IMG/VR virus record: IMGVR_UViG_3300042468_000280
Coordinates: 1-23,215 of that record
Source: a virus
Length of the DNA stretch: 23,215 nt
Direction: 5' to 3' (one strand)
Shown: one piece after another, positions 8,675-20,144 of the stretch
Numbering within the stretch: the stretch's first letter is position 1
Layout: every line of letters begins with the position of its first letter
Made by a program: the position numbers and the translations under genes
Notes under the pieces: generated by a model
What the model saw: the letters and a program-made list of their open reading frames with translations, nothing else
What the model was told of the DNA's origin: nothing
The model's database searches: none

Positions 8675-9439
8675 ATGGAGAACAAAACGGTAGCATGGTC
8701 CACAATGCTAAGTGATGCAGTCACTCAACCCGGCATCATCAGCAGTGCATACAGTGCATTCCACAATTACAGCATGGGAAACCAGCTACTGGCATGGTCC
8801 CAACTTACAGCCCGTAACATGGGGCTTTCACCCCTGGCAACTTATAAACGATGGTCAGAACTTGGGCGACAAGTTAAAAAAGGCGAAAAAGCCATTGCTC
8901 TGGTTATGCCAGTTACTATCAACAAAAAAGATGGTGCAGGCGAAAAAACGGGTGAATGCTTCCAATGGTTCACCCTTAAAAATAATTGGTTTTCCCTTGA
9001 TCAGACCGAAGGGGCGGAATTTGCCAATGAAACCATTACACCAGCATGGAATGCTGATAAAGCACTTCAAACCCTTGATATCACATTGATTCGGTTTGAT
9101 TCTGCATCTGGTAACTGCCAGGGTTATGCCACTGGCAAAAATATCGCTATTAACCCGGTAGCAGCACTGCCCCATAAAACCCGGTTCCATGAGTTAGCCC
9201 ATGTTGTTCTAGGTCATACCCTTGAAAGCACAATGTCTGATGATGATAGAACCCCTAAAGACATACGCGAAGTAGAAGCTGAGTCGGTAGCTTATATATT
9301 GTGCTCTGTGCTTGATTTGCCAGGATTGATTGAATCAAGGGGCTATATTCAAAATTGGTTAGATGGTGCTGAGATCAGCGATAAGTCAGCACAGCGCATA
9401 TTCGGTGCAGCCGATAAGATTCTTAAGGCCGGAGCGTAA
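8675..9439 (+). CDS. ArdC-like antirestriction protein (ssDNA-binding domain plus zincin)
   Basis: The protein has 254 residues. The N-terminal domain (about 1-115) matches ArdC N-terminal ssDNA-binding domains: YSMGNQLLAWSQ, LATYKRWSELGRQVKKGEKA, then a W/F-rich strand. The C-terminal metallopeptidase part has FHELAHVVLGH at 171-181 (HExxH at 172-176), followed by EVEAESVAY (Glu201 and Glu203), the third-ligand motif. ArdC proteins of plasmids and phages protect incoming DNA from restriction enzymes. AAGGAT lies four bases before ATG. It is the first gene of the rightward operon next to the control region, consistent with early expression on infection. It could instead be a related IrrE/ImmA-type peptidase, but the N-terminal domain argues for ArdC. 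Confidence 0.88.
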   Translation: MENKTVAWSTMLSDAVTQPGIISSAYSAFHNYSMGNQLLAWSQLTARNMGLSPLATYKRWSELGRQVKKGEKAIALVMPVTINKKDGAGEKTGECFQWFTLKNNWFSLDQTEGAEFANETITPAWNADKALQTLDITLIRFDSASGNCQGYATGKNIAINPVAALPHKTRFHELAHVVLGHTLESTMSDDDRTPKDIREVEAESVAYILCSVLDLPGLIESRGYIQNWLDGAEISDKSAQRIFGAADKILKAGA

Positions 9440-9500: not shown

Positions 9501-10163
9501 ATGGAACACGCAACAATTGAAACCACCACCACCATTGACAATGATCTAATGATCATGCCAGGCCATTTGGCTGCTATTGCCATGTTTGCAGCTAAAAAAG
9601 ATATCCGCCATTATCTAATGGGGGTTTGCATTGACACCGGACCTGCTGGCGCGTTTTTAGTGGCGACTTGCGGCCATGCTATGGCAGTGCACCAGATCGA
9701 CAATGTGGCGCGACCTGCTGGTCAATTTATTATGCCACTGGTGCCACTTGCCAGCATGATCAAGGCAAACAGGCGCGTCGGTATCAAGCTAACTCTGCCT
9801 GCTGGTTTTGCAGGTAAGTATGACAACAATGCTCGCGTCAAACGTCAAGTAACGCTCGAATCACTCAAAGGTGAAATTGCCATAGTGCCCGAAATGGACG
9901 GCATTTTCCCAGACTGGCGTAGAGTTGCACGTTATGACGATGCACCATATCCGCAGCAGGTATTTTTTAACCCTCACTACTTGGTCCGAGTTGCCGATGC
10001 TGCTGATCTGATTAGTGAGCGCAAATTCTCAGTCCAAGTTCGCCCAGGTGGCACTGGTGTAGGTTTTGCCACTTTGGACCATGAGGGGAAGACGGTGGCT
10101 TATGTTATGCCGATCAGGGGCACCATTGACGATCTGCCCAGCAAACCCACAATGACTTATTGA
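9501..10163 (+). CDS. Truncated beta-sliding-clamp-like protein
   Basis: This 220-residue protein aligns by eye with bacterial DnaN. KKDIRHYLMGV (32-42) and ATCGHAMAV (55-63) match the domain 2 motif DVRYYLNG...ATDGHRLAV. DGIFPDWRRV (133-142) matches DGRFPDYRRV at the domain 2/3 border. FFNPHYLVRVADAADL (155-170) and YVMPIRG (201-207) match the end of domain 3. Domain 1 (about 125 residues) and the first half of domain 3 are missing, so the canonical ring cannot form. Residues lining the partner-binding cleft are largely kept (Thr56, Gly58, His59, Pro137, Arg141, Val142, Pro204, Arg206), although DGHR has become CGHA. The start at 9501 has AGGAA upstream. The family match is good, and the function (recruiter, decoy or alternative ring) is unknown. 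Confidence 0.8.
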   Translation: MEHATIETTTTIDNDLMIMPGHLAAIAMFAAKKDIRHYLMGVCIDTGPAGAFLVATCGHAMAVHQIDNVARPAGQFIMPLVPLASMIKANRRVGIKLTLPAGFAGKYDNNARVKRQVTLESLKGEIAIVPEMDGIFPDWRRVARYDDAPYPQQVFFNPHYLVRVADAADLISERKFSVQVRPGGTGVGFATLDHEGKTVAYVMPIRGTIDDLPSKPTMTY

Positions 10164-10177
10164 TCAAATAACCCCCT

Positions 10178-10198
10178 AACCCTTACCCTGTAAGGGTT
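10178..10198 (+). terminator. Hairpin after the clamp-like gene, possible weak terminator
   Basis: AACCCTTAC-CCT-GTAAGGGTT is a perfect nine-bp stem 14 bases after the stop codon. It is followed by TATAGCTATCATTTT rather than a clean T-run, so partial termination or mRNA processing is more likely than full termination. The next gene begins 29 bases later with its own strong ribosome binding site. Confidence 0.45.
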
Positions 10199-11279: not shown

Positions 11280-11609
11280 TGTCGTTTCTATCTGGCGCTT
11301 CGCGTCCTCAAAGCCATGCCCCACAATAACCTTGTGACCGATACCCTCTAGGTACGCGATCCAGTCCCTTTGTACTGGCGACACTACGCCGCTCTTGATT
11401 CTTTTGAATTCAATCCAGCATAGCCAAGCGGGGATAAAAATATCTGGTACGCCAGGGGCTTGGCCGGTGGCCTTCATTTTTGCAGCTACTGCAATGTGAC
11501 GATGTCCGCCGTTTGGAATAGACATAATCCTAGTTTCTGGATATGTACGCTTGAACCATTGAACAAACAACATTTGCTCATGGTCTTCACTTGGTACTTT
11601 TTCGGTCAT
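11265..11609 (-). CDS. VRR-NUC domain nuclease
   Basis: This 114-residue protein has the compact PD-(D/E)xK layout of VRR-NUC enzymes: an N-terminal Glu (EDHEQMLFVQWF, about 8-19), IPNGGHR (31-37), GVPDIFIP (53-60, Asp56), WIEFKR (65-70, Glu67 and Lys69) and QRDWIAYLE (80-88, Gln80). Stand-alone VRR-NUC proteins of phages cleave branched DNA, including Holliday junctions, or act as endonucleases in recombination. It is the last gene of the leftward recombination block, and its start overlaps the HNH stop by ATGA. The nuclease family is confident, and the substrate is inferred from the family. Confidence 0.9.
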   Translation of the reverse strand: MTEKVPSEDHEQMLFVQWFKRTYPETRIMSIPNGGHRHIAVAAKMKATGQAPGVPDIFIPAWLCWIEFKRIKSGVVSPVQRDWIAYLEGIGHKVIVGHGFEDAKRQIETTKPEG

Positions 11610-12268
11610 AATAAAAACCCTTTTTGTTGCATAAAGTCGATGGGGTGTTTGGCGTGTTTTTTATGATTACACGTTGCGCGAAGCAACTGTATGTTGTCAT
11701 CAGTGTTTGACCCGCCAAGCGCCAACGGAACAATGTGATCCAAATGATAATTTTTACCCAAATGTTTTTTACAGCAAGGACATTTACCGCGCTGAAGTTT
11801 GAATAACTTTGTGGATAAGTTTTTTGACAGAGTGCCGCCGTTAGCGCGTTTACGGGCGCGGCGATTTTGTCCATTGATTCTATGGGCTTCAGGATTGGCT
11901 TTATGCCATGCCGCATCAATAGCTTTTTTACGCTCTGGATTAGCTTTTCTCCAAGCGGCATTAGCTGCGTTACATTGCTTGGGATTCGAAGCGTACCGTA
12001 AAGCACTAATTGCCTTAATTTTCTCAGCGTTGGTTAAGTAATATTCCGCTTTTTTTGCTTTTAATTTTTCTGAATTAACTGACTGATAAACTGCGCGGGT
12101 TGCCCTTGCGCGCTTAAGGTTAGCAGTGTACCAAGCAACATTATTTGCTTTTTCTCTTTCTAGATTTACTTTTCTCCATGCCGCGCAACGTGCATTGTTG
12201 CATGGCTTGCAATCGCCTTTTTTATTGCGCTCGGTTTCAGCTTGGCATTTTGGACAAAATCTTGTCAT
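11606..12268 (-). CDS. HNH endonuclease with 15-residue repeats
   Basis: The protein has 220 residues from the ATG at 12268, which has GAGGG upstream. A longer frame from 12310 lacks that support. The N-terminus MTRFCPKC with Cys20 and Cys23 is a zinc-finger-like knot. Residues 31-135 are seven repeats of 15 residues, with an aromatic near the start and Asn exactly every 15 (35, 50, 65, 80, 95, 110, 125). The HNH core is CPCC (163-166), HLDHIVP (175-181), Asn192 and Cys200. Phage HNH proteins nick or cut DNA, either as homing nucleases or in packaging. Its place between recombination genes, with coupling to VRR-NUC, fits either a mobile insert or a block member. Confidence 0.88.
   Translation of the reverse strand: MTRFCPKCQAETERNKKGDCKPCNNARCAAWRKVNLEREKANNVAWYTANLKRARATRAVYQSVNSEKLKAKKAEYYLTNAEKIKAISALRYASNPKQCNAANAAWRKANPERKKAIDAAWHKANPEAHRINGQNRRARKRANGGTLSKNLSTKLFKLQRGKCPCCKKHLGKNYHLDHIVPLALGGSNTDDNIQLLRATCNHKKHAKHPIDFMQQKGFLL
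11864..12178 (-). repeat. Seven 45-bp coding repeats in the HNH gene
   Basis: Seven units of 15 codons (residues 31-135) share the pattern aromatic-x-x-x-Asn-x-Glu-x-x-Lys-Ala, for example WRKANPERKKA. The DNA copies have diverged, so the period is clear in protein but weaker in bases. Confidence 0.75.
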
Positions 12269-12366
12269 GGTGACACCCTCTAACGGTTGGATGATGGTGT
12301 CAGTAAGCATTGGTTAGAGCAATGCAAGGCTGGCCGGCCCTGTCCTGACGTAATCATTTTACCACG

Positions 12367-14150: not shown

Positions 14151-14397
14151 CTTTATGCCTCTTATAAATTACGTTACGTCCATCTTTTTGTATCCTTCTT
14201 GTACCTTCTAACATTCCAAGGTAATAAATTCGTTTTATCAAAATTCTTAAAACTTCGATATTCCATCTTTTTAAATTTAAATAATCATCCATCAATTTAT
14301 CTGCTGTTGGATCACCGTATTCACCAGCCAATAATTGATTAGTCATTTCTGAAAGTTCTTGCCTAGAAATGATTTTGCTTATATTTTTTAAATTCAC
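14140..14397 (-). CDS. AT-rich hypothetical 85-aa protein with GTG start
   Basis: The frame reads from GTG at 14397 (MNLKNISKIISRQELSEMTN) to RNVIYKRHKDAP. GTGA overlaps the exonuclease stop, and GGGAGGG lies about seven bases before it, so GTG is preferred to an ATG at 14418. It has predicted helices with many Lys, Ile and Leu. Its coding DNA is much more AT-rich than that of the exonuclease and helicase on both sides, which suggests recent acquisition. A small DNA-binding or regulatory protein is possible. Nothing in the sequence assigns a family. Confidence 0.68.
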   Translation of the reverse strand: MNLKNISKIISRQELSEMTNQLLAGEYGDPTADKLMDDYLNLKRWNIEVLRILIKRIYYLGMLEGTRRIQKDGRNVIYKRHKDAP

Positions 14398-15407
14398 CCC
14401 ACTACCCTCCCATCCCATTCCTTCCGCAGCGCCATGACCTGCGGATCAGCAGCCACGCAAGCCGCAGCATTAGCCAAAAGTTCCTTTGACCCATACACCC
14501 CCTCACCCGGCTCACCGTTAGCAATGCCCTGCCCGTCAATCTCATACACGGCCACCCAGTCGCTTGGCCCTTCCAAGCGCTTCCACGGCACCAGATCAGG
14601 ATGGATAACGTGACTCTCGCAGCCTGTAAGCTGGGCGTCAGTCGGGACGATGGCGTCCCACTTGGCGCAGTGCCAGGTGCTGTCAGACAGTGGAGTGATG
14701 TGGGCGCACGTTCGGCAGTTGACTTGTTTGGTGGTCTTGCTGCCGTGGCAGAAGTCATGGCCTGCACACATACGGCATTCAAACCATGTCGGGTCAGTGC
14801 TTATCGGCGGTGGCAGGCGGTCAGTCAGCGCCAACCGTTGGCCTTTGTCGATTGCCTTCACCGCATGGTCGCGGTCATACTCCAGGCGCTCGGTGTAAAT
14901 GCGGTCATCGTCCTTGCAGACGGCAACGTACAAGGCGCGTTTCAGTTCGATGCCGTGCATATACACTTGGCACTGGGTGAAATGCTGGGGCTTAGACTTT
15001 TGCACTCCATTCTTCTCAAGGTCGTTGAAGCTCTTGAGACTGTGAGTTTTAAACTCCAATACGTGTTCCGTTTTTGGCGCACCGGGTACGCCTTTTCCAA
15101 TACCGTCTAGGCTCCCGCTAACGTGACTGCCAAAGTCAACCCGACGTTGGGTTCCGGTCACGCTCATGCCGATAGCGCGTAGGTCGCTGATGATAGTGGC
15201 CTCTTCGTTGAAGCCACGCCTAAACAGTCGCAGGATGCGGCCTTGGAACTTCTCAACCACCGCCCAACGGAATGACAGCCAAAGCCAGCGCTCACAGTGA
15301 TGGCCCAGCGTACTACACCCCATGTGAGCGCGGGGCTTCTCGGCTCTTGATTGATGGGCGGCGTCAATTAGGGAAGTTATGGTAATCTCTGGCTCTGGTA
15401 TTTGCAC
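14394..15407 (-). CDS. Cas4/RecB-like PD-(D/E)xK exonuclease with Fe-S cysteines
   Basis: The protein has 337 residues, starting at GTG (15407) with AGGAG eight bases upstream. The nuclease core has GSLDGI (98-103, Asp101) and LEFKTHS (117-123, Glu118 and Lys120), with QxxxY-like QCQVYMHG (145-152). Cys31 plus CRMCAGHDFC (Cys211, Cys214, Cys220) gives the four-Cys pattern of Cas4/AddB-type Fe-S nucleases. A second Cys set (Cys231, Cys234, Cys247, Cys263) may bind another metal. It is probably a 5'-3' exonuclease making the single strands that the Sak4 and DUF669 proteins use. The tRNA-like element and hairpin lie just upstream. Confidence 0.85.
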   Translation of the reverse strand: MQIPEPEITITSLIDAAHQSRAEKPRAHMGCSTLGHHCERWLWLSFRWAVVEKFQGRILRLFRRGFNEEATIISDLRAIGMSVTGTQRRVDFGSHVSGSLDGIGKGVPGAPKTEHVLEFKTHSLKSFNDLEKNGVQKSKPQHFTQCQVYMHGIELKRALYVAVCKDDDRIYTERLEYDRDHAVKAIDKGQRLALTDRLPPPISTDPTWFECRMCAGHDFCHGSKTTKQVNCRTCAHITPLSDSTWHCAKWDAIVPTDAQLTGCESHVIHPDLVPWKRLEGPSDWVAVYEIDGQGIANGEPGEGVYGSKELLANAAACVAADPQVMALRKEWDGRVVG

Positions 15408-15438
15408 GGTGTTTTCTCCTGAAGTTGTTGCTTATGTT

Positions 15439-15469
15439 GACCCCGCCGTTAAAAGCGGGGTCTTTTTTT
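15439..15469 (+). terminator. Strong rho-independent terminator pointing against its operon
   Basis: GACCCCGC-CGTTAAAA-GCGGGGTC forms an eight-bp GC-rich stem followed directly by seven T's on the plus strand. On the minus strand, the direction of the genes here, the stem is preceded by A's and followed by AACATAAG, so it would not terminate. It sits between the exonuclease start and the tRNA-like element. It is well placed to stop antisense transcripts coming from the left. Confidence 0.75.
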
Positions 15470-15484
15470 GGGTGGGGGTACTCG

Positions 15485-15553
15485 CTGCACTGGTTGGATC
15501 CGAACCAACGACTCGCCCTCGAAAGGCAGCTTTTCCAACTAAGCTACAGCATC
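15485..15553 (-). tRNA. Degenerate tRNA-like element (possible tRNA-Arg TCG pseudogene)
   Basis: On the minus strand this 69-nt segment has a textbook D-arm (TAGCTTAGTTGGAAAAGC) and a T-arm with a five-bp stem and loop, GTTGG-TTCGGAT-CCAAC. Between them, GCC-TTTCGAG-GGC forms a short anticodon-like arm whose central triplet would be TCG. Defects are plain. The anticodon stem is about four bases short, T-loop position 58 is G instead of A, and only three acceptor pairs (CTG/CAG) are sound. No CCA is encoded. It may be a decayed tRNA, a host-tRNA fragment, or a structured leader of the exonuclease message. Function as a tRNA is doubtful. Confidence 0.42.
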
Positions 15554-15570
15554 CGCTTTCCCCCCAAAAC

Positions 15571-16059
15571 TTACTTCTTAGCCCACGGTGGCGCAGACTT
15601 AGCAGCAGGCGCACCAGCAGACGGCCCAATAGGCTTGAACGGCGCAACCGCAGCCGGTGTCACCCCGCCTAAGGCGCGGTAGCCTTTGATCTCATTCCCG
15701 GCGTACTCACCAGTCTTGACCACCAGCTTGATGCCCAAGTTGCCGCCAATCAGTTGGTCGGTGTCGGTCACTTTGGCAAGGCCAATGGCTCGCATGATCT
15801 CGCCCAACTGCTGGCGTCCGATCTCTTCCGCCTTGGTTGAAGCATTTTTTATGTTCAGGTTTCCAAACACCACTCGCCCCTGATGGCTGGGGCCGGTGAT
15901 GGTGTACTTGCAAGCAATGTACTTGCCGTCACCTGCCTTAGTGGCTTTGATCTCAGCGCCGGTAATGGTGGAGTTGTACCAACCTTCGGGCAGTGGCTCA
16001 AAGTTGGAAGTGCCTTGCGGCAGAGTGTCGAGGGTAAATTCTTCGTCGAGAAAGGCCAT
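15571..16059 (-). CDS. DUF669 family protein, probable phage ssDNA-binding partner
   Basis: This 162-residue protein has the DUF669 layout. It opens MAFLDEEFTLDTLPQGTSNFEPLPEGWYN, quoted here as MAFLDEEFTLD then EPLPEGWYNSTITGAEIK, and continues with GKYIACKYTITGPSHQGRVVF, NLNIKNAS and AEEIGRQQLGEIMRAIGL. After residue 130 comes a Pro/Ala-rich tail ending PPWAKK. In many phages this family lies beside an AAA_24/Sak4-like ATPase and an exonuclease and is thought to bind ssDNA. That role is inferred from context and from its OB-like beta pattern, and is not shown by a motif. AAGGAT precedes the start by five bases, and the start is two bases after the upstream stop. Confidence 0.85.
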   Translation of the reverse strand: MAFLDEEFTLDTLPQGTSNFEPLPEGWYNSTITGAEIKATKAGDGKYIACKYTITGPSHQGRVVFGNLNIKNASTKAEEIGRQQLGEIMRAIGLAKVTDTDQLIGGNLGIKLVVKTGEYAGNEIKGYRALGGVTPAAVAPFKPIGPSAGAPAAKSAPPWAKK

Positions 16060-16061
16060 GA

Positions 16062-16436
16062 TTAATCCTTAGTGATAGTAAAAGTGGGACGCCCAGGGGT
16101 GGACGTAATGGCACCAAGCAGCGGCCCGGTCACAGCGTCAGCAGCCGCGCCCCAAGCCTTTGCATTGATTTCTGGTTTCCAGCGAAAGAGGCTGGAAAGA
16201 TGTTCAGACAGACCAGCTTCAGCGGCCAAGATTTGCAGTTTGTCGGCGTCGATCTTTTTGTTGATGCGGCCCTCGGTCTTGATGACGTAACCGTCGACAG
16301 CGTGTTTAACCGTGCCGTCAAGGTCTTTAGGGATGGCAAACGTCTCGACCATCAGGTCTTCCAGTTCCCGGCGCTCGGCCACCGCAATGCCTTCGGCTTT
16401 CTTAGCGTCAAGCCAGCGTTGGTAAAGTGTGTTCAT
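16062..16436 (-). CDS. Conserved phage protein of the recombination block (124 aa)
   Basis: The N-terminal helix (LYQRWLDAKKAEGIAVAERR) is followed by DGTVKHAVDGYVIKTEGRIN, a KIDADKLQ segment, LSEHLSSLFRWKPEINAKAW and a GRPTFTI end. I recognise this as a recurring phage family placed next to Sak4/DUF669 genes (DUF7173-like, from memory and unverified). The function is unknown. The N-terminal coiled-coil-like helix and the conserved FRWKPE block suggest a protein-protein adaptor. It overlaps its upstream neighbour by ATGA (16433-16436) and is two bases from DUF669. Confidence 0.8.
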   Translation of the reverse strand: MNTLYQRWLDAKKAEGIAVAERRELEDLMVETFAIPKDLDGTVKHAVDGYVIKTEGRINKKIDADKLQILAAEAGLSEHLSSLFRWKPEINAKAWGAAADAVTGPLLGAITSTPGRPTFTITKD

Positions 16437-16714
16437 TGGGTGTACTCCAGTGCTTGCAGTTTGCCGATACGTTCGTTGATTTGGTAGATTGACTTTGCAA
16501 AATCATCTTGCGCTTTTTGTTTGAGAGCCTGCAAGGCTGCGATCTTTTGAGCGGTAGGATCGTAGTTTTCAGGCGCGTCAAACTCAACTTCTTGTTGACC
16601 GACATAAGTGCGGTCTTCGGTGTCATCCATCTTGAATGAGGCAATTCTGTATTGCCCTTCTTCTTCCCACTCAAACTTTTGATAATGGACATGGGCCATG
16701 ATTTTGATTTTCAT
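16433..16714 (-). CDS. Hypothetical 93-aa protein with C-terminal coiled coil
   Basis: The N-terminal half is beta-like and acidic-aromatic (VHYQKFEWEEEGQYRIASFK, TYVGQQEVEFDAP). The C-terminal half (about 53-92) is a helix with heptad-like Leu/Ile/Ala spacing (AQKIAALQALKQKAQDDFAK). Both ends overlap neighbours by ATGA, so it is coupled between the Sak4 ATPase and the 124-aa gene. An ATG at codon 6 is a less likely start. No family is assigned. A dimeric accessory factor for the ATPase is a guess from context. Confidence 0.75.
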   Translation of the reverse strand: MKIKIMAHVHYQKFEWEEEGQYRIASFKMDDTEDRTYVGQQEVEFDAPENYDPTAQKIAALQALKQKAQDDFAKSIYQINERIGKLQALEYTQ

Positions 16715-17376
16715 GCTGCACCCCCGATTTTGTTAATGATCTCGCCCAGATCAGGCGCTTCCCAGCCACCCAGCTTGCCTGACCGATCCTTGGCAAGCCA
16801 CAGGCCGTCGCTGTCGCACATCAAAGCCCGTTGAGTGTTGCCCTCGGCATCTTTCTCAACCCGCAGCGCCAGCACTTCATCAAAGAAGTAAGGCAATGCT
16901 TGGCCGGTCTTGATACCCGGCATTGAGGGCGAATACAGCACCCGGCCCATTTCATCCTGCGTCTTCTCCAGCTTGGCGGTCATCAGAACATGGCGTCCGG
17001 GCAGGTCACGGAAGGCGCGGATGATATCGCTCATCTGTTCCTGCATTGCACCGTATGCCGCCCGTGGGTCTTTGTTGACCTTTTTTTCATGGTTCAGGCA
17101 AACCTCTGCAATCTCCGAGATAGAGTCCAGCGCCACTGATTTGTGGTCTGAATCCGTTACCCAAGCGTAAGCCTCACGCAAGTCTTCCATGCTGGTGATC
17201 TCCAGATACGGCAGGTCAGCGTCTTGGATAGACAGCAAACCCCCCTCGGCAGACAGAACCACTGGATGCGGTAAAGTCTTAATCAAGCTGGTCTTGCCAG
17301 CCCCTGCCTGCCCGTAGACAAGCAGCTTGACACCGTTGGCTGCAAGGCCGCCGGTACGTTTCAACGAAATAGCCAT
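16711..17376 (-). CDS. Sak4/AAA_24-like RecA-fold ATPase
   Basis: The protein has 221 residues, with Walker A GQAGAGKTS at 22-30 and Walker B-like SVALDSISEIA at 80-90 (Asp84). AYGAMQEQMSDIIRAFRDLP and the sensor-like HVLMTAKLEK follow, then PGIKTGQALPYFFDEVLALR and a C-terminal Gly-rich end. This is the AAA_24 type that includes Sak4, a RecA-related phage protein with single-strand annealing activity helped by its SSB. It is the first gene of the leftward recombination operon. AGGAG stands six bases before ATG, and the divergent promoter region is directly upstream. A RecA-like or ssDNA-sensing ATPase role is well supported. The exact activity is inferred. Confidence 0.9.
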   Translation of the reverse strand: MAISLKRTGGLAANGVKLLVYGQAGAGKTSLIKTLPHPVVLSAEGGLLSIQDADLPYLEITSMEDLREAYAWVTDSDHKSVALDSISEIAEVCLNHEKKVNKDPRAAYGAMQEQMSDIIRAFRDLPGRHVLMTAKLEKTQDEMGRVLYSPSMPGIKTGQALPYFFDEVLALRVEKDAEGNTQRALMCDSDGLWLAKDRSGKLGGWEAPDLGEIINKIGGAA

Positions 17377-19528: not shown

Positions 19529-19690
19529 ATGAACAGACTAACCCAACTCAAAGCCAAGTTGAGGGCTGCACAAGCCGAACTTGCAATCCGCACCCGGACG
19601 CACAACAGTGCGAGTCGGGCTTACAACAAAGTTACGGCACACATTGCCGAATTGGAAGCCAAAATCAATGCTTACGAAAAAAAGGTGTGA
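19529..19690 (+). CDS. 53-aa coiled-coil protein, possibly leaderless
   Basis: The frame reads MNRLTQLKAKLRAAQAELAI and then a second amphipathic helix (HIAELEAKINAYEKKV). Heptad-spaced Leu and Ala residues predict a coiled-coil dimer. No Shine-Dalgarno sequence precedes the ATG. The predicted transcription start from the promoter at 19493-19521 falls on or next to the A of ATG, so the message may be leaderless. The last 23 bases overlap the following HNH gene start. I do not recognise the family. Confidence 0.65.
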   Translation: MNRLTQLKAKLRAAQAELAIRTRTHNSASRAYNKVTAHIAELEAKINAYEKKV

Positions 19691-20144
19691 CGAGTTATTT
19701 GAATACCGACACGGTTTTCTTTATAGAAAACAAAAAACACGCGGCGCTTTAATTGGCGCAATTGCTGGCAATCAACGTAAAAATGGATATTTTCATGTTC
19801 GCGTTGACGGTCAAAGACAGTTGTGGCACAGAATTATTTTTGTTATGCATTTTGGCTGGAAACCTGAAACTGTTGACCACATTGATGGAGACCCAAGCAA
19901 CAACAAAATAGAAAATTTGCGAGCCGCGACTAGATCACAAAATCAACACAATCGTCGTCAAAACAAAAATTGTTCTTCTGGCATCAAAGGCATTTCTTTT
20001 GTTTCTGATGGTTTGTGGTGTGCAAGATTAAATGTGCAAAAACAAACTGTGTTTAAGCAATTTTTTGATGATTTTGAACTGGCTCAATTTGCTGTTGAAG
20101 AAGCAAGAAGAAAGTATCACGGCAATTTTGCCAAACACGCTTAA
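19668..20144 (+). CDS. HNH homing-type endonuclease with AP2-like domain
   Basis: The protein has 158 residues from the ATG at 19668, where GGAAG lies nine bases upstream. Longer in-frame starts would run deep into the upstream gene. LWHRIIFVMHFG (52-63), VDHIDGDPSNN (69-79, Asp70-His71) and IENLRAATRSQN (81-92) form the HNH core. GIKGIS and LWCARLNV (105-123) with the tail FAVEEARRKYHG (141-152) match the AP2-type DNA-binding domain often fused to it. Such proteins are mobile homing endonucleases in phages. The gene is more AT-rich than its neighbours and overlaps the coiled-coil gene, consistent with insertion. Confidence 0.9.
   Translation: MLTKKRCDELFEYRHGFLYRKQKTRGALIGAIAGNQRKNGYFHVRVDGQRQLWHRIIFVMHFGWKPETVDHIDGDPSNNKIENLRAATRSQNQHNRRQNKNCSSGIKGISFVSDGLWCARLNVQKQTVFKQFFDDFELAQFAVEEARRKYHGNFAKHA

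Follow-up and report, generated by a model that had tools for sequence, protein, structure and literature searches.

The closest described systems centre on the beta sliding clamp of E. coli, DnaN (366 aa; TIGR00663), whose three domains are represented by PF00712, PF02767 and PF02768. Its dimer interface includes residues I78, F106 and R103 of domain 1 and I272, L273, E298 and E304 of the N-terminal half of domain 3, and its partner pocket comprises subsite I (R152, L155, T172, G174, H175, R176, L177, P242, R246, V247, V360 and M362) and subsite II (N320, Y323, V344, P363, M364 and R365), with H175 and M362 common to both (PMC11139829). The engineered monomeric beta I272A/L273A, a full-length, three-domain laboratory point mutant, keeps this pocket and has lost the ring (PMC11139829, PMC3022782); it binds delta about 50 times tighter than the dimer does and is unable to tether Pol III (PMC11139829). 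Furthermore, attempts to obtain a plasmid encoding monomeric beta with its cleft intact did not succeed, which the authors read as a dominant negative effect (PMC3022782). There are phage precedents for host-replication shut-off at the same machine, namely N4 gp8, which acts on HolA (delta), and Twort gp168, which acts on DnaN (PMC3594737), as does G1 gp240 (PMC3594737, PMC11139829). Some phages also own a clamp. KL1 gp28 (386 aa, phrog_947) has all three clamp domains, and its gene adjoins that of a phage DNA polymerase, while the genome paper of Burkholderia phage AH2 already includes one of the short phage proteins known as 'DNA polymerase III beta subunit' (PMC3483164).

In the window, the whole stretch of 23,215 nucleotides of viral DNA analysed here, an open reading frame (ORF) on the plus strand runs from an ATG at 9501 to a stop codon at 10161-10163, with AGGA about 8 nt 5' of the ATG. 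Its 220-aa product, P0001, is confirmed as a relative of DnaN that consists of domain 2 and the C-terminal half of domain 3, and we refer to it as a half-clamp. A sequence-only reading made before this analysis had given the same coordinates and length, and the five motifs that it listed (DIRHYL, ATCGHAMAV, DGIFPDWRRV, FFNPHYL and YVMPIRG) were all found, in the same order. The features of the locus are as follows.

8675..9439, + strand: ArdC-like antirestriction gene (ArdC-N plus M78 peptidase), co-directional with the half-clamp gene and 61 bp 5' of it.
9501..10163, + strand: half-clamp gene, 220 aa, DnaN domain 2 plus the C-terminal half of domain 3, from profile and fold searches and alignment.
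9540..9926, + strand: DnaN domain 2-like part, residues ~14-142, from the family profile and alignment; its pocket residues R36, L39, T56, G58, H59, P137, R141 and V142 align with E. coli R152, L155, T172, G174, H175, P242, R246 and V247.
9927..9968, + strand: short linker, residues 143-156 (~14 aa), which replaces the whole N-terminal half of E. coli domain 3.
9969..10121, + strand: C-terminal half of DnaN domain 3, residues 157-207, from the family and tail-only profiles and alignment; N157, Y160, M203, P204 and R206 correspond to E. coli N320, Y323, M362, P363 and R365.
10122..10160, + strand: C-terminal tail past the E. coli C-terminus, with KPTMTY in P0001 and P-x-W/F in many relatives.
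10178..10198, + strand: hairpin with a 9 bp stem directly after the half-clamp gene (-10.8 kcal/mol, z = -2.56; no T-run), a possible transcript end.

A scan for promoters and terminators stayed at chance level.

Taken by itself, P0001 gives weak DnaN matches (Pfam PF02767, E = 0.005; NCBIfam TIGR00663, E = 0.0042; PDB phmmer, E = 0.0014). A family profile built from P0001 and 33 relatives matched 55 PDB sequences, all of them DnaN, with a best E of 5e-29, and the match to DnaN falls in two separate pieces, at E. coli residues ~138-290 and ~316-365. The significant profile match to DnaN domains 2/3 on which the sequence-only reading had staked its assignment is thus present. The pseudo-symmetric halves of domain 3 were told apart by a tail-only profile and by alignment without the N-terminal half; against the six half-domains of E. 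coli beta, the tail-only profile matched the C-terminal half of domain 3 best (E = 1.5e-4), with the others at 0.15 or above. Both the family and the tail-only profiles therefore uphold the placing of the protein in domain 2 and the end of domain 3. AlphaFold models of P0001 reached a pLDDT of 80.6 and a pTM of 0.78, or 84.5 and 0.81 with a 91-row alignment, and when two AlphaFold models were compared with the PDB by Foldseek, the best 50 matches listed were solely DnaN (prob 1.00, E ~4e-9). The models overlay loosely on whole beta (TM 0.5-0.63; rmsd 5-9 A in most), so that the way in which the half-domain packs against domain 2, and with it the integrity of the pocket, is a prediction of the models. 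In a viral library, Foldseek matched short proteins named 'DNA polymerase III beta chain', with a best TM of 0.71. P0001 is also related in sequence to the full-length phage clamps of phrog_947 (E = 9e-11), including KL1 gp28, which lies in a similar gene set (Sak4, exonuclease, helicase and primase) but has all three domains.

What the half-clamp has lost is the ring-forming part of the molecule. The dimer interface of beta lies in domain 1 and in the N-terminal half of domain 3, both of which are absent, and all seven interface residues named above sit in these two missing stretches. With both parts gone the known dimer interface is gone, and the half-clamp would not be expected to encircle DNA. 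Of the three domains by which DnaN is recognized (PF00712, PF02767 and PF02768), the half-clamp retains just domain 2 and one half of domain 3. Between DWRRV and FNPHY there are ~14 residues (143-156) in P0001 and ~70 in E. coli beta, which bears out an earlier estimate of about 15 versus about 65. Moreover, the distance from PDWRRV to MPxR was 53-70 residues in every one of the 144 ORFs in which the pattern could be measured, among 173 complete family ORFs, and this spacing throughout the measured ORFs makes the half-domain deletion a fixed feature of the family. As far as sequence can tell, the anatomy first proposed, in which domain 1 is absent and the ring parts are lost but the cleft is kept, is fully supported.

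The residues that had been cited for the cleft (T172-G174-H175, P242-R246-V247 and P363-R365) match the published pocket list (PMC11139829). P0001 keeps the E. coli residue at 13/18 pocket positions, compared with 25/162 of the other aligned positions. Over 52 family clusters, made at 70% identity, pocket positions had a mean identity to E. coli of 0.78 and the other positions one of 0.18, and no set of columns among 100,000 drawn at random reached the conservation of the pocket. In these alignments, conservation across the family is highest in the pocket that receives clamp-binding motifs (CBMs). It is weaker in subsite II, where V344 is not alignable, M364 is variable and N320 is kept at 65%. 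Residues equivalent to Y153 and Y154 and the C-terminal P-x-W tail are conserved as well, and the pocket alone does not account for them. In most members a tail of 10-15 residues extends past the E. coli C-terminus and carries a conserved P-x-W/F (LPAWAL, APTWY, VPTWC) that has no DnaN counterpart; this tail might either serve as a cap for the missing half-domain or lie folded across the pocket.

The family is large and has been filed under conflicting names. Scans of IMG/VR gave 369 relatives and then at least 549. Named phages with a half-clamp include Bcep781, Bcep43, BcepC6B, EP23, SO-1, TheodorHerzl, yong1, Acinetobacter 4316 and P. aeruginosa USP_18/25, and the viral fold library adds Burkholderia AH2, BcepNazgul, Rhodococcus REQ2, Gordonia Horus, Pantoea phages and Seurat. 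For the coliphage TheodorHerzl, E. coli K-12 is given as the host. The short 'beta subunit' proteins Bcep781 gp15, EP23 gp08, AH2 gp20 (209 aa), BcepNazgul gp21 and that of TheodorHerzl (PHROG 3007/12598) belong to the same family and have the same architecture, although they are only 22-36% identical to P0001 and their names disagree (beta subunit, fragment, RusA). In databases, family members are called 'DNA polymerase III beta subunit', once with 'fragment' (Bcep781), while PHROG 3007 and 12598 and NC_004333.2, NC_016566.1, NC_005887.1 and others are labelled as RusA-like Holliday junction resolvases, a name that the sequence contradicts. Ten loci lie in bacterial genomes, at least two of which (350 aa, Thiomargarita) are genuine full-length clamps; no relatives were found on plasmids, and no near-identical cultured phage was found. 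Longer variants also occur, including a 482-aa ORF with an internal half-clamp-like stretch and forms of ~258 and 319 aa with C-terminal extensions (a Pseudomonas luteola contig, L098, and loci L084/L046). Between the window gene and 11 relatives, dN/dS was 0.05-0.13, and the half-clamp gene is under purifying selection. In the open-access literature we found no functional study of the short clamp family and no paper noting that its ring parts are lost and its pocket kept; the proteins are already in databases, and their ring-less, pocket-keeping anatomy and their role appear to be undescribed.

The phage in the window encodes a primase-helicase, Sak4, a DUF669 SSB-like protein, a Cas4-type exonuclease, an SF2 helicase and a VRR-NUC-like protein. 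Two related records that carry the half-clamp are complete or nearly so, as judged from their ends: the first, closely related, is 37.8 kb long and has overlapping ends (~1.1 kb; 87% identity), and the second, which is more distant, is 37.2 kb long and has a 114-bp terminal repeat. Neither was found to encode PolA, DnaE or the phrog_1252 polymerase; in a search with PF03175, no control gave a match. No DNA polymerase is annotated in the cultured Salicola phage CGphi29 and Alteromonas phage PB15, which have the same replication module; they also lack the half-clamp, in a search where the half-clamp profile found its positive control, E. coli DnaN, at 1e-29. Thus, this module appears to depend on the polymerase of the host, with the half-clamp as an accessory to the module. 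Other relatives own a phage polymerase that sometimes adjoins the half-clamp, and the PolA-type gene beside it in Acinetobacter 4316 and BcepC6B is as compatible with an accessory role in replication as with a decoy. A phrog_1252 polymerase homologue in another record (G015, 15127-17007, minus strand) contains two in-frame TGA codons, which would reflect either decay or TGA recoding.

An early-takeover role had been hinted at from the ArdC-like gene upstream. That neighbour is recurrent, lying directly upstream in 24/36 close relatives and in several with a clamp only ~26% identical, but it is not universal. The commonest neighbour is a DUF7249 protein with an NGWANYETW motif, present in 14/45 clusters and co-directional in all those listed (L070:5003-5284, L073, L075, L131, L137 and nine more), and a gene of the TreK family, a terminal-repeat-encoded phage family, is another (L069:8701-9009); DUF7249, TreK and the half-clamp possibly form a common early host-takeover block. 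In Hafnia phage yong1 the half-clamp lies between cII and a replication gene. The surroundings with ArdC, DUF7249 and TreK, and those in yong1, look like early-gene type. However, in EP23 and Bcep781 the half-clamp lies amid structural genes, on the opposite strand and not in an early block, which counts against an early role.

From this anatomy, and by analogy with monomeric beta, we propose that the half-clamp is a non-ring clamp mimic that would bind host CBMs and compete with the host beta ring, a proposition that we regard as evenly balanced. It would stay a monomer or a small non-encircling oligomer, and its pocket would bind the CBMs of clamp-loader delta (HolA) and Pol III alpha, and possibly those of Hda, ligase, MutL and TLS polymerases. 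Host partners so bound would be kept off the host beta ring, with the outcome that host replication or clamp-dependent repair is slowed or stopped early in infection, or that the partners are handed to phage DNA. Early production, and inhibition rather than recruitment, are what we infer. No strict CBM was found in the proteins of the 23-kb window, where a loose motif occurred below chance level, and this weakly favours host rather than phage partners. A candidate CBM, QIDLF in one phage polymerase, was rejected; it lies near the N-terminal exonuclease region and is missing from two relatives. A decoy or adaptor, as the sequence-only reading had suggested, is the best reading of the anatomy, with the binding itself predicted, and it is strengthened by the pocket being the most conserved part, by the like behaviour of monomeric beta and by the lack of a strict CBM in the window proteins.

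Whether such a protein would withhold partners or recruit them is the main alternative to be weighed. As a recruitment adaptor, the half-clamp would bind host polymerase, ligase or other CBM proteins together with a phage replication protein, forming an open tether that does not encircle DNA. The adjoining polymerases in 4316 and BcepC6B and the replication gene in yong1 speak for this, as do the conserved Y153/Y154 equivalents and P-x-W tail; so does the apparent lack of a polymerase in the window group, which must then use that of the host. Nevertheless, we consider recruitment unlikely, though still a serious contender, since most of the residues with which beta contacts the duplex (R24, R73 and R80, in domain 1) are gone, phages sharing the replication module manage without the gene, and its neighbours are not consistently replication genes. 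A decoy is favoured over recruitment because no part of the anatomy could keep the protein on DNA and because the gene is missing from the nearest cultured phages that have this replication module. It is improbable that the half-clamp forms a different oligomer, such as a ring made by half-domain pairing between protomers, and so acts as a true processivity factor. The half-domains of clamps are pseudo-symmetric, the number of subunits in a clamp can change, as in T4 gp45 and PCNA, without the N-terminal half of domain 3 a core face should lie exposed and might pair, and the lengths of the half-domain and linker are strictly kept. However, two-fold pairing of like half-domains would set protomers in opposite orientations, unlike any known clamp, recognition by a clamp loader would be required, and no sequence evidence was obtained for a new interface. 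A ring of new architecture from protomers of 1.5 domains, with 12 half-domains in four chains instead of six domains in two or three, is in our view highly improbable.

The remaining explanations are met by the sequence data more directly. If domain 1 and half of domain 3 were supplied by another phage gene, two chains could make a normal ring, but across 22 related records there was no PF00712 or PF02768 match and never more than one PF02767 match per record, with control genomes positive. A split clamp, for which no supporting point was found and which would need a highly diverged partner, is thus largely refuted and barely credible. The RusA-like resolvase named in PHROG 3007/12598 and in several RefSeq phage records draws on a real match, as the PHROG 3007 profile matches P0001 at E = 4.6e-23 (residues 22-207 on 9-186 of 190) and 34/34 members match, and on annotations transferred from it. 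Yet none of the 34 members has a RusA Pfam match at E <= 0.01, while 31/34 match DNA_pol3_beta_2; the PDB profile search finds DnaN only, and no RusA fold is among the best 50 matches listed per library. The resolvase explanation is therefore refuted by sequence and given next to no weight, and the name in PHROG looks like a labelling error. Equally negligible is a functionless, decaying fragment of a captured dnaN; although the clamp is truncated and the older Bcep781 annotation reads 'fragment', the dN/dS values and the number of relatives refute decay, and the same architecture and near-invariant pocket residues occur in all relatives examined.

The half-clamp is thus clamp-derived, lacks the ring features that define DnaN and probably works as a mimic of the clamp pocket. 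If the decoy reading is true, hundreds of phages with many hosts own a natural clamp copy reduced to its pocket, which is directed at the proteins that bind the clamp and not at the clamp itself. Clamp-binding motifs are an antibacterial target, and the family would offer a natural scaffold to study or block them. If recruitment is true instead, the clamp pocket would be in use without a ring. As a decoy, the half-clamp would also represent a distinct route of host-replication shut-off beside Twort gp168 and N4 gp8, which share the host machine that is its presumed target (PMC3594737, PMC11139829); whereas Twort gp168 occupies the channel through which DNA passes in the clamp, the half-clamp would imitate the clamp and target its partners.

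Several further observations concern the family and its genomes. A C-terminus ending in -AA (ESVAA, ESIAA, LEKEAA) occurs in 18/44 half-clamp clusters, compared with 10/285 of the remaining ORFs of those contigs (Fisher p = 3e-11); loci with this ending include L063, L065, L069, L070, L075, L082 and L087, and P0001 ends in -TMTY. The ending resembles a C-degron of the ssrA/ClpXP type, so that those half-clamps would be short-lived. An insertion containing a 232-aa ORF, with no Pfam match and no Rfam intron match, splits the gene for the Cas4-type exonuclease in the 37.8-kb relative (L110:16964-18699; homologue of window 14394-15407); this insertion is possibly a homing element or an unrecognized intron. 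The window itself carries two HNH genes, at 11606-12310 (minus strand) and 19581-20144 (plus strand), with HNH_5 and HNH_3 domains respectively, which are probably mobile homing endonucleases.
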